Positions 2,587-9,702 of a stretch of 37,693 nucleotides of DNA are shown here, piece after piece. The DNA lies in the NCBI GenBank assembly GCA_902576045.1, contig CACGTU010000010.1, positions 1 to 37,693 on the forward strand, given 5' to 3'. The position numbers and the translations under genes were made by a program. This stretch comes from an uncultured Pelagibacteraceae bacterium. Its GTDB lineage: Bacteria; Pseudomonadota; Alphaproteobacteria; Pelagibacterales; Pelagibacteraceae. Under the pieces are notes generated by a model. That model was not told where the DNA came from and did no database searches. It saw nothing but the letters and a program-made list of their open reading frames with translations. Numbering within the stretch: the first letter of the stretch is position 1; the number at the start of each line of letters is the position of its first letter.

Positions 2587-3636
2587 ATGTCAGATATTAC
2601 TTTAGGTATAATAGGTGGAGGTCAACTCGGATCCTTATTATCTGTAGCTGCAAATAAATTAAATATTAATACTGTAATCTTTAGTGATGATAAAAATTCT
2701 CCAGCAAAAAATTTTACAAAAAATTTTATTTCTGGAAATTATGATGATGAAAAATTGATTAAAGAGTTTTTAAGTAAAGTAAATGTGATTACTTATGAGT
2801 TTGAAAATATTCCTTACAAAATATTGAAGAAATTAAATGAAATTAAACCAGTATTACCAAAGCCAGAAATAAATAAATTAATTCAAAATAGATATACTGA
2901 AAAAGATTTTCTTAACAAAAATAACATTAGAACAACAAGATATTCTCTAATAAAAGACGAAGATGATATTAAAATAAATGACGGATTAATTCCTGGTTTA
3001 TTAAAAACTTGTACTTTAGGTTATGATGGAAAAGGACAATTCAAAATTGATAAAACAGAAAATATTAGTTCTGAAATTGATTTTACTAAGGAATATATTC
3101 TAGAAAAATTTGTAAAACTAAAAAAAGAGATTTCTGTAATTATCACACGATTTGGTCATCAAAGATATGAAATTTATGAACCAATTGAAAATTTACATGA
3201 GGATCAAATTTTAAAACATTCAAAAATTCCTGCTCAAATATCAGAAAAAATTAAAAATCAGGCAACCAATTGGGCAACTATAATTGCTGAAGAGCTCGAT
3301 TATGTTGGAACGTTATGTGTTGAATATTTTATTGATAATAAAGATAATTTATATGCAAATGAAATAGCCCCTAGAGTTCATAACTCAGGTCATCTAACAA
3401 TAAATTCTCATAATGTAAGTCAATTTGAAAATCACATTAGAGCTGTATGTGGACTAGAAAAAGTTGAAACAAAAAAAATATATAATGCTAGAATGCTCAA
3501 TCTAATTGGAAATGATATTGAAGACTATCGTGTGAAAAATTTCAAAGATAATGAGTTTTTTTTTGATTACCAAAAAACTGAAATAAGAGAAAAAAGAAAG
3601 ATGGGTCATTTCACAATTATTGAAAAAGAGAATTAA
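2587..3636 (+). CDS. purK: 5-(carboxyamino)imidazole ribonucleotide synthase PurK
   Basis: This ATP-grasp enzyme makes N5-CAIR from AIR, bicarbonate and ATP, supplying PurE. Its 349 aa match the usual length. Visible motifs are IGGGQLGSLL at residues 8-17, TYEFENIP (about 70), the ATP-grasp glycine loop TLGYDGKGQF (about 142), and the NEIAPRVHNSGH catalytic segment (about 258). The ATG follows the purE stop directly (TAAATG), so translation of the two genes is coupled. After the stop there is no clear hairpin-plus-T-run terminator; instead a 200-bp repeat-rich stretch follows. Confidence 0.97.
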   Translation: MSDITLGIIGGGQLGSLLSVAANKLNINTVIFSDDKNSPAKNFTKNFISGNYDDEKLIKEFLSKVNVITYEFENIPYKILKKLNEIKPVLPKPEINKLIQNRYTEKDFLNKNNIRTTRYSLIKDEDDIKINDGLIPGLLKTCTLGYDGKGQFKIDKTENISSEIDFTKEYILEKFVKLKKEISVIITRFGHQRYEIYEPIENLHEDQILKHSKIPAQISEKIKNQATNWATIIAEELDYVGTLCVEYFIDNKDNLYANEIAPRVHNSGHLTINSHNVSQFENHIRAVCGLEKVETKKIYNARMLNLIGNDIEDYRVKNFKDNEFFFDYQKTEIREKRKMGHFTIIEKEN

Positions 3637-3671
3637 ATTTTTTGGATTAAAGATAGACTATATTTGGGGTG

Positions 3672-3718
3672 CTAGTGGTACACCCGACTTCACACAACCT
3701 CACACTACTTCACACTAG
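3672..3718. repeat. Three 10-bp tandem repeats enclosed by 6-bp inverted arms
   Basis: CTTCACACAA, CCTCACACTA and CTTCACACTA lie in exact 10-bp register from 3688 to 3717. They are enclosed by CTAGTG (3672-3677) and CACTAG (3713-3718), which are reverse complements. A second small pair, GGGTG and CACCC, brackets 3669-3685. The period of about one helical turn would present the same face of DNA to a protein, so multimeric protein binding is possible; an imperfect RNA stem is an alternative. The stretch is less AT-rich than its surroundings and codes for no plausible protein. Function unknown. Confidence 0.7.
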
Positions 3719-3720
3719 TT

Positions 3721-3758
3721 ATGCGGATAATTAAAATTTGATTGAAAATAATTCGCAT
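3721..3758. repeat. Imperfect 12-bp inverted repeat
   Basis: ATGCGGATAATT (3721-3732) and AATAATTCGCAT (3747-3758) pair at 10 of 12 positions across a 14-nt centre. The ATGCG/CGCAT ends are perfect and rich in CG for this genome, so the pairing is less likely to be an AT-bias accident. It lies between the 10-bp repeats and the first 37-nt direct repeat. It could be an operator or a stem in a non-coding RNA. Confidence 0.5.
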
Positions 3759-3783
3759 AAAGACTCATCAATTTAAGCTAAAA

Positions 3784-3820
3784 ACTATACCCCAAACTAT
3801 ACCAAGTTGAGATAAATCAA
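3784..3820 (+). repeat. 37-nt direct repeat, copy 1 (left of regulator/aldolase pair)
   Basis: This copy matches the one at 5399-5435 at 32 of 37 positions in the same orientation. Each copy contains ACTATACC twice, 12 bases apart, followed by the identical TTGAGATAAATCAA. In this copy the second half extends to a perfect 7-bp hairpin, AAGTTGA-GATAAA-TCAACTT (3804-3823). It ends 15 bp from the stop codon of the Lrp-family gene. The two copies bracket the divergent gene pair almost exactly, as would be expected for a cassette inserted between duplicated ends. Confidence 0.75.
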
Positions 3821-3835
3821 CTTAATATAATATCT

Positions 3836-4288
3836 TTATTCTACTCGTGAATATTCTGACTTAACTCTACGTAAAGGTACGGAGGTTTCAACTGAAGAAA
3901 CACCATCTATTACAGTAAGTTTTTTTGTTAAAAAATCCTCAAATTCCTCAACATCTTTAACCGCAATTCTAATTAAGTAATCCTTAGCACCTGTCATTAA
4001 CCAACATTCAACAACTTCAGGAAAATTTAAAATTTTTTTCTCAAATTTATCAAAATTTTTTGATTGTTGTTTTTCTAGGCTTATAAATATAAATGCAGGA
4101 AATTTGTAACCAAGTGAAGTTTCATCAATATTTATTGAATAATTTTTAATTATATTATTTTCTTCTAATTGGTTTATTCTTCTTGCGGTAGGAGCAATAC
4201 TTAAATTTATTTTCTCACTAATATTTTGAAGTGTAGTTTTGCTGTTATTTTTAAGTATTTTTACAATCTTTTTATCAAATTCATCCAT
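3836..4288 (-). CDS. Lrp/AsnC-family transcriptional regulator, 150 aa
   Basis: The N-terminal helix-turn-helix (about residues 1-55) begins DEFDKKIVKILKNNSKTT and includes ISEKINLSIAPTARRINQLE. The C-terminal RAM (ligand-sensing) domain spans about 65-150 and includes VECWLMTGAKDYLIRI. Length and layout are those of a feast/famine regulator, which binds DNA as dimers to octamers and senses an amino acid or related metabolite. It is divergent from a DapA-family aldolase gene across a 117-bp gap carrying inverted repeats, so it most likely controls that gene and itself. The effector is unknown; a substrate or product of the neighbouring aldolase is the natural guess. The family is secure, the target is inferred. 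Confidence 0.93.
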   Translation of the reverse strand: MDEFDKKIVKILKNNSKTTLQNISEKINLSIAPTARRINQLEENNIIKNYSINIDETSLGYKFPAFIFISLEKQQSKNFDKFEKKILNFPEVVECWLMTGAKDYLIRIAVKDVEEFEDFLTKKLTVIDGVSSVETSVPLRRVKSEYSRVE

Positions 4289-4296
4289 ATTTTTAA

Positions 4297-4361
4297 TAAA
4301 TTTTATTAATATTTATAAAATATCTTATAAAATTTACTAATATTCAACTATAAATTAGTAA
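4297..4361. promoter_or_regulatory. Candidate operator region between regulator and aldolase genes
   Basis: Two perfect inverted repeats partly overlap in the divergent promoter gap. TTACTAAT (4334-4341) pairs with ATTAGTAA (4354-4361) across 12 bp, and TAAATTTTAT (4297-4306) pairs with ATAAAATTTA (4327-4336) across 20 bp. Dyads of this kind in a divergent gap beside an Lrp-family gene are typical of autoregulatory sites. The second dyad is pure A/T and could be chance; the first includes C/G and is more persuasive. Confidence 0.45.
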
Positions 4362-4405
4362 TAATAGAGAAAATTTATTTTTAATTTCATGTAATTAATA
4401 ATTAT

Positions 4406-5374
4406 ATGAATAAATCTAAATCATTTGATCCAATCTGGGTTCCAATTATTTCTCAATATCAAAACACAAAAAATTTAGAGCTAGATGAAAAGCTTATTCA
4501 AAAACATATCAATTGGTTAGACCCACATGTAAAACAATTCTTGATATGCGGAACTACAGGGGATGGATGGAATTTAACAGATAAATTAATTTTAAATTGG
4601 TTAGATATATTAAATGATAACTCTTTAATCAAAAAAGATAACAAAATATTATTTGGAGCATTTGGAAAAACAACAGAAGATGTTCTAAGACGTGCAGATA
4701 TCATAGAAAGACATATAGATAAAAATGGATCATCTGCAGGTTTTTTTGGATTAACTTTATGTGCTCCCGTTGATGAAAACATCAAACAAGAAGGAATTAT
4801 TTCACATTTTAAGCGTATCATTGAAAATACACATTTGCCAATTTCTATCTATCAATTACCTCAAGTAGTAAAATGTAAAATTGAACCTGAAACATTAAAA
4901 ATATTAAAAGATAATTTTCAAGATAGAATTAAATTATTTAAGGATACTAGTGGTGAAGATGATGTTGTGAATTCTAGAATTAATTTTAATGATTTAATAT
5001 TTTTAAGAGGAGCAGAAGAAAATTATTTTGATCATTTAAAACCTAATGGGAAATATGATGGATTTTTATTAAGCTCAGCAAATTGTTTTGGTAAAATTTT
5101 AAGAGAAATTTATAATAATGTTGCAAAGGGTAATTTTAAAGATGCAGAAAAAATGTCTGAGGAACTAAGCGATATAATTAGAATTTCATTCTCAGAAGGT
5201 CAAAAACTAGATTTTGGAAACCCTTTTTCTAATGTAAATAAAGCATTTGCTCATGTCTTAATTAATAAAGATAATCTTAGTTGCAAAACATGTTTTGATA
5301 GAAATATACCTAATGAATTTTTAAATGATATGTTTCTATTGCTATCTAAATATAACTTAAGAAAATCCTTATAG
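4406..5374 (+). CDS. DapA/N-acetylneuraminate-lyase family class I aldolase, 322 aa
   Basis: A (beta/alpha)8 aldolase of the dihydrodipicolinate synthase superfamily. The GTTGDG motif (residues 49-54) corresponds to the family GTTGE carboxylate-binding motif. Tyr149 in IYQLP corresponds to the catalytic Tyr of YNxP. Lys179 in LFKDTSG is the Schiff-base lysine. All core catalytic positions are present, so it should be an active pyruvate- or 2-oxoacid-dependent lyase or synthase. Divergence from housekeeping DapA (IYQLPQ rather than YNVP, many basic inserts) and the dedicated Lrp-type regulator suggest a catabolic role, for example on a sugar acid or hydroxyproline derivative, rather than lysine synthesis. 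The gene ends 24 bp before a copy of the flanking direct repeat. Substrate unknown. Confidence 0.88.
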   Translation: MNKSKSFDPIWVPIISQYQNTKNLELDEKLIQKHINWLDPHVKQFLICGTTGDGWNLTDKLILNWLDILNDNSLIKKDNKILFGAFGKTTEDVLRRADIIERHIDKNGSSAGFFGLTLCAPVDENIKQEGIISHFKRIIENTHLPISIYQLPQVVKCKIEPETLKILKDNFQDRIKLFKDTSGEDDVVNSRINFNDLIFLRGAEENYFDHLKPNGKYDGFLLSSANCFGKILREIYNNVAKGNFKDAEKMSEELSDIIRISFSEGQKLDFGNPFSNVNKAFAHVLINKDNLSCKTCFDRNIPNEFLNDMFLLLSKYNLRKSL

Positions 5375-5398
5375 GAATTTGTAAAATTTTGTGGGATA

Positions 5399-5435
5399 AC
5401 TATACCCAGGACTATACCAGATTGAGATAAATCAA
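5399..5435 (+). repeat. 37-nt direct repeat, copy 2 (right of regulator/aldolase pair)
   Basis: Same orientation as the copy at 3784-3820, with five substitutions: three in the spacer between the two ACTATACC units and two just before TTGAGATAAATCAA. The flanking hairpin arms of copy 1 (AAG/CTT) are not conserved here. It lies between the aldolase stop and the 3' end of the broken SRAP gene. Confidence 0.75.
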
Positions 5436-5486
5436 GGTTTGAAGTAGTATGAATAAAGAAAACGCAAGTAAACTGTGGAAACTTAT

Positions 5487-6095
5487 TCAGGAAGCCGGCG
5501 ATTTATTAGTACGTTTGTTCACTTCTTTTGATACTTCGTAAAAATTTAAAGTTGGTTTTCTACATTCATTTAAAATGTTTGAACCAGAAAGTTCTAAATT
5601 TAAATATTTGTTCACATCATTCTCATTTAAAATAACAGGTTGTCTATGATGAATTTCACTAATATTACTTGATGCTTGTTCTGTAATTAAGCAAAACTGT
5701 TTATTCTCAAAAATAGCTGCAAAATATATAAGTTTTTTGTCTACTCTTTGAAAATAAAAAGGTGTTTTAATTTTATCTTCCCTTTTCCATTCATAAAACC
5801 CATCCGCAATAGCAATACATCTTGAGACATTTATTAATTTTTTAAAAGAGATTTTTTCATCAATTGTTTCAAGTCTTGCATTAGTTTATGGTTTAAAATC
5901 CCTCTTTTTTGACCAAGAAGGGATTATTCCCCATGTCAAATTCTCAAGTGTATTTCCATTAATATATTTTTTTATAACTGGAAGTTTTTGATAAGGATGA
6001 GCATTATAATTTTCATTATCTTCAACTTGAATTGCAGATTTAACTATTTTCTTTGTTTTTGAAACAGGATTAGTAATTACATATCTACCACACAT
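5487..6095 (-). pseudogene. SRAP/HMCES (YedK-like) gene interrupted by one in-frame TAA
   Basis: The minus frame starts MCGRYVITNP at 6095, with Cys2 as the nucleophile that crosslinks abasic sites in SRAP proteins. It continues through LTWGIIPSW and then meets TAA at 5888-5886, exactly where the family reads into its NAR-ET motif. In the same frame the rest follows at once: TNARLETIDEKISF, ADGFYEWKRED with the catalytic Glu, and EIHHRQPVIL with the catalytic His, ending near VNKRTNKSPAS and TGA at 5489-5487. The whole is 203 codons, the normal family length, with no frameshift. SRAP proteins shield abasic sites in single-stranded DNA. The lesion is a single nonsense codon, so it is a very recent pseudogene, a strain polymorphism or a base-call error. 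It lies next to the repeat-bracketed cassette and is divergent from the GNAT gene. Confidence 0.88.
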
Positions 6096-8707: not shown

Positions 8708-9702
8708 TATTTAAACAATTTTTTGATAATTCCTCATCAACTTATACGTACCTCATTAGTTCTGGGAAAGGTAGAGAGGCATTAATTATTGACCCAGTAT
8801 TAGAGAATGTTGAAACATATATTAGCTATTTAAAAGAATTAGATCTCAAACTTGTAAAGGTGATAGATACACATATTCATGCGGATCATATTTCAGGCAT
8901 GGCTGAATTAAGAGATAAAACAAATTGTGTAACTATAATGGGGGACAAAGCACCAGCTAATGTTGTTGCCATGAAAGTTGCTGACAATGAGAATATCAAG
9001 ATTGAAAATATAAATATTAAAGCACTATTTACACCAGGTCACACGTCTGAAAGCTTTTGTTTTTTGATGAATGATAGGGTTTTTACTGGAGATACTTTAT
9101 TAATTAAAGGGACAGGCAGAACAGATTTTCAAAATGGAGATGCAAGAGATGCCTATAATTCTATTTTCAATGTTCTATTAAAACTGCCTGAGGACACAAA
9201 AGTATATCCTGCGCATGATTATAAAGGAGAAACTGTAAGTACTATCGGTGAAGAAAAAAAATTAAATCCTCGTTTACAAGTCAAATCTGTGGATGAATAT
9301 GTGAATATTATGAATAATTTAAATTTACCAAACCCAAAAATGATGGATATTGCAGTTCCTGGAAATCTCAGTTTAGGTATCAGTTTAAAAAAACAGAAAT
9401 TAAGTAACGGTTTAGAAAAAAAAGATTTTTTAAGGAAGATAAAAGATCAAAACAGTTTACTGATAGATTTAAGAGAAAAACAAGAAATTGAAAAAGATGG
9501 AAAAATTGAAGGAGGACTTGAAATTCCTTTTACTGATATTAACGAATACATAAAAAATAATAAACAAGATCTTTTGAATAAAAATTTATTATTTTATTGT
9601 AGAGTTGGTCATAGATCAGCACTAGCTGTTCAAATTTCGAAAAATTATAATCTTGAAAATAGTCATCACTTAATTGGTGGGATGAAAAACTTAAATTTGT
9701 AA
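8704..9702 (+). CDS. Persulfide dioxygenase (ETHE1-like) fused to rhodanese domain
   Basis: The N-terminal metallo-beta-lactamase domain (residues 1-180) has THIHADH (His57, His59, Asp61, His62), TPGHTS (His113), FTGDTLLIKGTGRTDF (Asp130) and YPAHDY (His171). The GTGRTDF motif and the predicted single-iron set His57/His113/Asp130 are those of ETHE1-type persulfide dioxygenases, which oxidise glutathione persulfide to sulfite. A rhodanese domain follows (about 240-332) with active-site Cys299 in FYCRVGHRS, able to move sulfane sulfur between thiols. Such fusions couple sulfur transfer and persulfide oxidation in the cytoplasm. The gene overlaps the transporter gene upstream by 4 bp and converges on soxG with a 6-bp gap. 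Confidence 0.92.
   Translation: MIFKQFFDNSSSTYTYLISSGKGREALIIDPVLENVETYISYLKELDLKLVKVIDTHIHADHISGMAELRDKTNCVTIMGDKAPANVVAMKVADNENIKIENINIKALFTPGHTSESFCFLMNDRVFTGDTLLIKGTGRTDFQNGDARDAYNSIFNVLLKLPEDTKVYPAHDYKGETVSTIGEEKKLNPRLQVKSVDEYVNIMNNLNLPNPKMMDIAVPGNLSLGISLKKQKLSNGLEKKDFLRKIKDQNSLLIDLREKQEIEKDGKIEGGLEIPFTDINEYIKNNKQDLLNKNLLFYCRVGHRSALAVQISKNYNLENSHHLIGGMKNLNL

Follow-up and report, generated by a model that had tools for sequence, protein, structure and literature searches.

Introduction

What explains the dense array of repeats that follows purK in an uncultured member of the Pelagibacteraceae? SAR11 bacteria rank among the ocean's most abundant cells, and their genomes are streamlined. 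The window – the whole stretch of 37,693 bp that was analysed, from contig CACGTU010000010.1 of assembly GCA_902576045.1 – contains a spacer of this kind at 3640-3835, for which a first-pass annotation offered three readings: a structured RNA, the remnant of an integration site, or a protein-binding array.

Here, we compare this spacer with related genomes and with viral contigs. It is very probably the left attachment end (attL) of a cassette that lacks its own integrase, the enzyme most likely being supplied in trans by 9-kb elements and the arms of the attachment site setting the specificity. Dozens of different cassettes with shared ends are stacked at one SAR11 gene, referred to as gene X, and are apparently moved by the integrase of these separate 9-kb elements.

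Results

Organization of the spacer

The repeats first described in the spacer are all present. Three tandem repeats of about 10 bp lie at 3681-3715 with a start-to-start distance of 10, bracketed by CTAGTG (3672-3677) and CACTAG (3713-3718); the inverted repeat, given earlier as 12 bp, measures 14 nt with 86% complementarity (3719-3732 and 3747-3760); and the repeat of about 37-38 nt at 3783-3820, the feature to which the 7-bp hairpin AAGTTGA/TCAACTT belongs, has an 87% identical partner in direct orientation at 5398-5435. Alignment with copies from other genomes delimits a 160-nt unit, window 3661-3820, starting with ATTTGGGG and ending with GAGATAAATCAA (Table 1). The right arm of the hairpin lies outside this conserved unit, and the hairpin is thus incidental.

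The unit is very probably the attL of an integrated cassette of 1.84 kb, at about 3662-5503. It is the left arm of an attP site together with the equivalent of the first codons of an integrase gene, and its arm-type pair corresponds to the integrase codons KLxxKLxxxEIxQ in two integrase-bearing elements, L118 and L120. The integration site remnant and the protein-binding array were therefore both right in kind, the one as an attL and the other in that the arrays are laid out like integrase arm-type sites. Beyond 3640-3835 lie the matching right end (5398-5503), the whole cassette and an array of cassettes across genomes.

Table 1. Features of the cassette and its flanks in the window
Feature	Position	Strand	Remarks
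purK, left flank of insertion	2587-3636	+	Pfam ATP-grasp and PurK_C; purK and SRAP gene adjoin in relatives
attL core junction GACTAT/ATTTGGGG	3656-3669	+	exchange at about 3661/3662; empty site of relatives AAACTATTATTTGTAGG
Conserved 160-nt left end	3661-3820	+	near-gapless alignment of copies, sharp edges; layout as in attP of L118, L120 and L286
10-bp phased CACACTA repeats	3681-3715	+	repeat number differs among copies
Mid segment with inverted repeat	3719-3760	+	common to cassettes, absent from integrase-bearing elements; no covariation
Left arm-type pair ACTATACC...ACTATACC then GAGATAAATCAA	3782-3820	+	matches own right arm
Lrp/AsnC regulator (cargo)	3836-4288	-	Pfam AsnC_trans_reg, 5.7e-22
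DHDPS (DapA) family enzyme (cargo)	4406-5374	+	Pfam DHDPS, 2e-20
Right arm-type pair ACTATACC...ACTATACC and GAGATAAATCAA	5398-5435	+	direct repeat of 3783-3820
Element-borne 5' end of gene X (MNKENASKLWKLIQEAGD...), ending in core	5449-5503	+	
attR core junction GGCGATT/TATTAGTACG	5497-5513	+	exchange at about 5503/5504
SRAP (HMCES-like) gene, 3' end struck by insertion	5487-6095	-	in-frame stop at 5886-5888

Empty sites and a second location of the same cassette

In relatives, purK and the convergent SRAP gene adjoin directly, for example in G108 (...AAAGATAAACTATTATTTGTAGGTTT...). The window junctions read GATAGACTAT/ATTTGGGG on the left and GGCGATT/TATTAGTACG on the right; the outer halves joined give GACTATTATTAGTACG, the same as the empty sites, and the inner halves joined give GGCGATTATTTGGGG, the same as attP. 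With the pre-insertion attB of this genome inferred from its relatives, the simplest reading is a conservative exchange, without base loss, at a putative secondary site that has ATTATT[T/A]G in common with gene X. An attL and attR with a common core, and an unoccupied attB in relatives, are what characterizes attachment sites of lambda-type tyrosine integrases. The last residues of the SRAP gene (5487-6095, minus strand) come from the cassette end. A Xer/dif reading of the AATCGCTTAAAGACTC motif was abandoned because the empty sites place the core at ATTATTTG, and a tRNA remnant was ruled out as the origin, none being found within the window.

The same Lrp/DHDPS unit is located at gene X in G107, where it has a scar and matches window 3661-5507 at 98.4% over 1847 bp, the homology beginning at 3661; in G215 the unit is likewise at gene X, its left end being damaged, and the gene X locus of the window genome is empty. 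Found at gene X in G107 and between purK and the SRAP gene here, an integrase-less unit has occupied two unrelated sites, and the presence of this 1.84-kb unit at both loci indicates that it probably moved itself.

Recurrence of the left end in SAR11 genomes

The elements of the spacer recur in related genomes as a block: among 201 same-genus (SAR11) genomes, 30 contain nearly complete copies of the 160-nt end that share both edges (E ≤ 1.1e-9), often several per contig and up to four. Over 114 distinct bodies the length steps by 10 nt (152, 162, 172), as expected because the number of CACACTA repeats varies. Scanning GTDB genomes with the left-junction pattern gave at least 119 stretches, and among the matches listed most are from Pelagibacteraceae single-cell genomes; the body is present in 99 of 124 scanned loci (119 listed stretches and five added otherwise). 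An empty cassette exists in G229, which belongs to a different genus of this family: gene X comes straight after the body, and there is no cargo (L088 7033-7305).

Gene X is the usual target

Gene X encodes 75 aa beginning M-N-x-E-N-x-x-KLWKIIQEAGDYL..., matches no Pfam family, and is present in 105 of 147 genomes across the SAR11 order. Nearly all bodies are preceded by its first ~24 codons, cut at codon ~20, and at the far end of the cassette the gene X 5' end appears again, followed by intact gene X. Each insertion, with a gene X 5' end on either side, thus leaves the old 5' end as a scar and provides the gene with a new start. Of 145 near-complete hits to the body, counted without de-duplication, 141 have the scar upstream. 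The exceptions are the window and its sister G149, a single site in G152, and also L162, in which a diverged gene-X start lies ahead of the body. The region downstream of gene X is largely fixed, with threonine-aldolase-like, amidinotransferase-like and peptidase-like genes (named by sequence resemblance only) among which additional genes intervene in L079; the upstream side is variable.

Gene X itself (e.g. L083, plus strand, ~4849-5076) has very weak similarity to the phage anti-repressor family phrog_463 (E 0.056). A distant second integrase of 557 aa, 28% identical to that of L118, is found in L123 (8228-9901; also L122 584-811 and L123 10001-10108) and is apparently inserted at codon ~40 of gene X with the last 36 codons duplicated; gene X seems to be the target of two integrase types.

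Cassette cargo

Cargo ranges from 0.56 to 8.4 kb (median about 1.85 kb) and is mostly ~0.9 coding. In addition to the Lrp regulator and DHDPS-family enzyme of the window, cassettes encode type I restriction-modification (L085), an Eco57I-like enzyme (L033), an N6 methylase (L035), an EcoRI-type methylase with GmrSD/HNH (L116), a C5 methylase (L091), a Z1/ResIII protein (L105, with a near-identical ORF in L094), an AAA helicase with an MTES_1575 nuclease domain (L100), an AbiU-like protein (L032), a TRAP transporter with an amidohydrolase (L099), a short-chain dehydrogenase (L098), and BipA with a DEAD helicase (L106).

Integrase-bearing 9-kb elements

A complete attP is present in two contigs from IMG/VR, a source that does not prove packaging. 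L120 (8,983 bp) is circular, as its first 50 nt recur at 8885 in a long terminal repeat, and L118 (9,070 bp), whose terminal repeat measures just 29 bp, is probably so. On each of the two contigs the order is right-arm repeats, gene-X start, core and left arm, leading straight into a gene for a tyrosine integrase of 568-575 aa (PF00589 at 8.5e-6 and 4.1e-5, under the Pfam curated cut-off; phrog_1 at 8e-23 for L118), and the terminal repeat pair of the 160-nt unit plus GAGATAAA-CAA corresponds to about codons 4-17 of that gene. The SAR11 single-cell contig AG-447-P19 (L286) has an attP and an intact integrase, 82% identical to that of L120, in a gene order consistent with a circle, and with no terminal repeat. 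In the attP of L118, L120 and L286 alike, arm-type repeats flank the core on both sides, next to a tyrosine integrase gene.

The 9-kb elements encode the integrase, an AEP primase and small HTH-like proteins; no capsid gene was recognised in them, and several small proteins are without assignment. Against isolate phages, the L118 integrase gave no match and its primase weak, partial matches only. Relatives of the 9-kb integrase/primase elements reside at other chromosomal places in G120 and G168 (L281 7113-13899; L282 1657-8175), the integrase being intact in G120 and the G168 match having one in-frame stop. Intact integrase-bearing elements at the core described here are rare in the data examined: besides a broken integrated integrase copy adjoining gene X in G159 and a remnant in L222, there are the two viral contigs and one intact single-cell contig. 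The right-arm repeats of G159 are of the ACTATACC class, as in the window cassette. In the remnant (single cell AG-899-N21, L222 6900-7300), an attL carries an integrase N-terminus joined to a yajQ-like C-terminal fragment; it is evidently what a deletion has left of an integrase-bearing element.

The broken integrase of G159, the fusion in L222 and the lost left end in G215 are what would be seen if the cassettes were decayed elements, that is, 9-kb integrase-bearing insertions at gene X that lost everything between their arms, so that what remains would be inert scars, their genes left over or acquired, with no mobility in trans. We consider this unlikely, because one integrase-less unit with identical inner breakpoints is found at two unrelated sites, the cargo is ~0.9 coding, the arms remain matched, and the 114 distinct bodies share a mid segment missing from the integrase-bearing elements. 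Cassettes conserve this segment, which separates the CACACTA array from the arm pair; it has no match in L118, L120, L162, L280-L282 or L122-L123 (best E 0.45), nor was its motif found in viral contigs. Its restriction to cassettes speaks against many independent deletions from integrase-bearing elements, and argues for the cassettes being a lineage that propagates as cassettes.

Arm repeats and integrase specificity

The variable bases of the ACTAG-type pair differ among cassettes and agree between left and right within one. Across 40 cassettes the mean left/right alignment score is 19.7 for true pairs and 8.5 for others, with 0 of 20,000 permutations as high; a few cassettes (L030, L103) have mismatched arms. 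The arm classes of L118 and L286 also occur in cassettes. Among the integrases, the N-terminal ~150 residues are 41-62% identical versus 73-90% for the rest. The N-terminal region of lambda-type integrases is the arm-binding region, and its fast divergence is as expected if arm recognition diversifies. Together with the matching of arms within cassettes, this divergence suggests that the repeats are bound by the integrase, and that they determine which integrase can serve, and move, which cassette.

Conservation of the spacer does not reflect RNA structure

The folding of the spacer, which is better than that of its shuffles, would agree with a structured non-coding RNA, or an RNA regulator, lying downstream of purK. 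The z-score is about -3.1 on each strand, and this equality points to DNA inverted repeats. An Rfam scan of the stretch gave no match, copies sit in many different gene contexts, and a covariance analysis over 114 distinct copies detected no covariation in the tested helices: pairing was 0.695 versus 0.696 in column shuffles for the inverted repeat at 3719-3760, 0.675 versus 0.677 for 3663/3789, and 0.746 versus 0.743 for CTAGTG/CACTAG. RNA structure is refuted as the explanation of the conservation, and the proposal of a structured RNA, which is left unsupported, is highly improbable.

Recombinases in cassettes and their host genomes

No relatives of the L118, L120 or L123 integrases were found in the cassette loci, and there is no cognate integrase in the cassettes or cassette-bearing genomes examined. 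The cassettes are att-flanked units without an integrase, as are CIMEs and other non-autonomous elements. In a PF00589 search of 35 genomes (cassette-bearing and controls), 32 had a match and three had none over threshold; most have a single ~325-aa recombinase (Xer-type) and a few have extras. The complete cassette-bearing genomes G213 and G211 have one tyrosine recombinase each. A resident serine recombinase was rejected as the mover, being absent from 18 of the 19 cassette-bearing genomes searched. Some genomes are incomplete, and an integrase could therefore be missed in them. Integron-type gene cassettes, with attC sites and an integron integrase, likewise form arrays of small cassettes of one to few genes at a single locus, and are scarcely credible here, since no integron integrase was seen near the arrays or in the genomes searched, exchange is at ATT/ATTTG inside the 5' end of a host gene, and the lambda-like sites include arm repeats, the integrase-bearing attP being separate.

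Discussion

These comparisons are best read as describing MITE- or CALIN-like integrase-less cassettes that would be mobilised in trans by arm-matched integrases, often with defence genes. The attP of a circular cassette would have a right arm with two 11-12-bp ACTAG-type repeats, a centre formed by a copy of the gene X 5' end, in which the core GGCGATTATTTG lies, and a left arm bearing the 10-bp CACACTA repeats and a second ACTAG-type pair of the same kind. The attB with which a tyrosine integrase would recombine this attP lies at codon ~20 of gene X; the old 5' end would be left as a scar while the cassette brings a new start, so that cassettes could accumulate upstream of gene X, which stays intact. 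The cassette has no integrase of its own; the enzyme would most likely be supplied in trans by 9-kb integrase/primase elements of the L118, L120 and L286 type, in which the attP layout is the same and whose arm repeats would set the pairing of integrase and cassette. In the window, the Lrp/DHDPS cassette would have entered between purK and the SRAP gene through a core that resembles the usual one (ATTATT[T/A]G). Mobilisation in trans, and a route of transfer between cells, are what we infer from this arrangement.

A literature search on SAR11 cassettes, CIME-like systems and satellites, with some key papers outside its reach, found analogues and not this system. CIMEs and the ssrA islands of Dehalococcoides (PMC3146451) are likewise units flanked by attL and attR, many of them integrase-less, in tandem stacks at one gene. 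The SAR11 cassettes differ from them in their size (0.6-8.4 kb), cassette-specific left segment and class-matched arm repeats. Unlike the Dehalococcoides islands, for which DsiB is a serine recombinase (PMC3146451), the SAR11 integrase is of the tyrosine type and its site lies in the 5' end of a gene for a small protein; in the 9-kb elements, no conjugation genes were noticed. MITEs and CALINs (PMC11389934) are also non-autonomous, keep their recombination ends and borrow an enzyme in trans, whereas what the SAR11 cassettes keep is a two-armed lambda-like attP, in place of attC or terminal inverted repeats, and their cargo is long and diverse. Marine phage satellites – VEIMEs, tycheposons and PICMIs (PMC11389934, PMC10803314) – may be akin to the 9-kb elements, whose gene set is satellite-like; the SAR11 cassettes differ in having neither integrase nor primase, and tycheposons are described at tRNA genes. 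The dusA integrases (PMC4482086) also insert at the 5' end of a protein-coding gene; their target gene is a different one, and most SAR11 insertions differ in being without an integrase.

We lean towards a broader interpretation, in which lambda-like att sites would sustain a cassette economy in SAR11 like that of integrons: a distinct integrase-less lineage would spread and diversify on its own, each cassette tuned by its arms to one of several integrase specificities from satellite-like elements, and would bring in genes for defence and nutrients singly or in small numbers. The matched arm repeats render integrase-specificity classes directly testable, and the core and arm signatures allow cassettes to be listed in SAR11 genomes and metagenomes. 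SAR11 bacteria usually have a single tyrosine recombinase, yet their accessory genes vary greatly, and the cassettes offer a concrete site-specific route by which genes for restriction-modification, abortive infection, transport and regulation may enter and be swapped.
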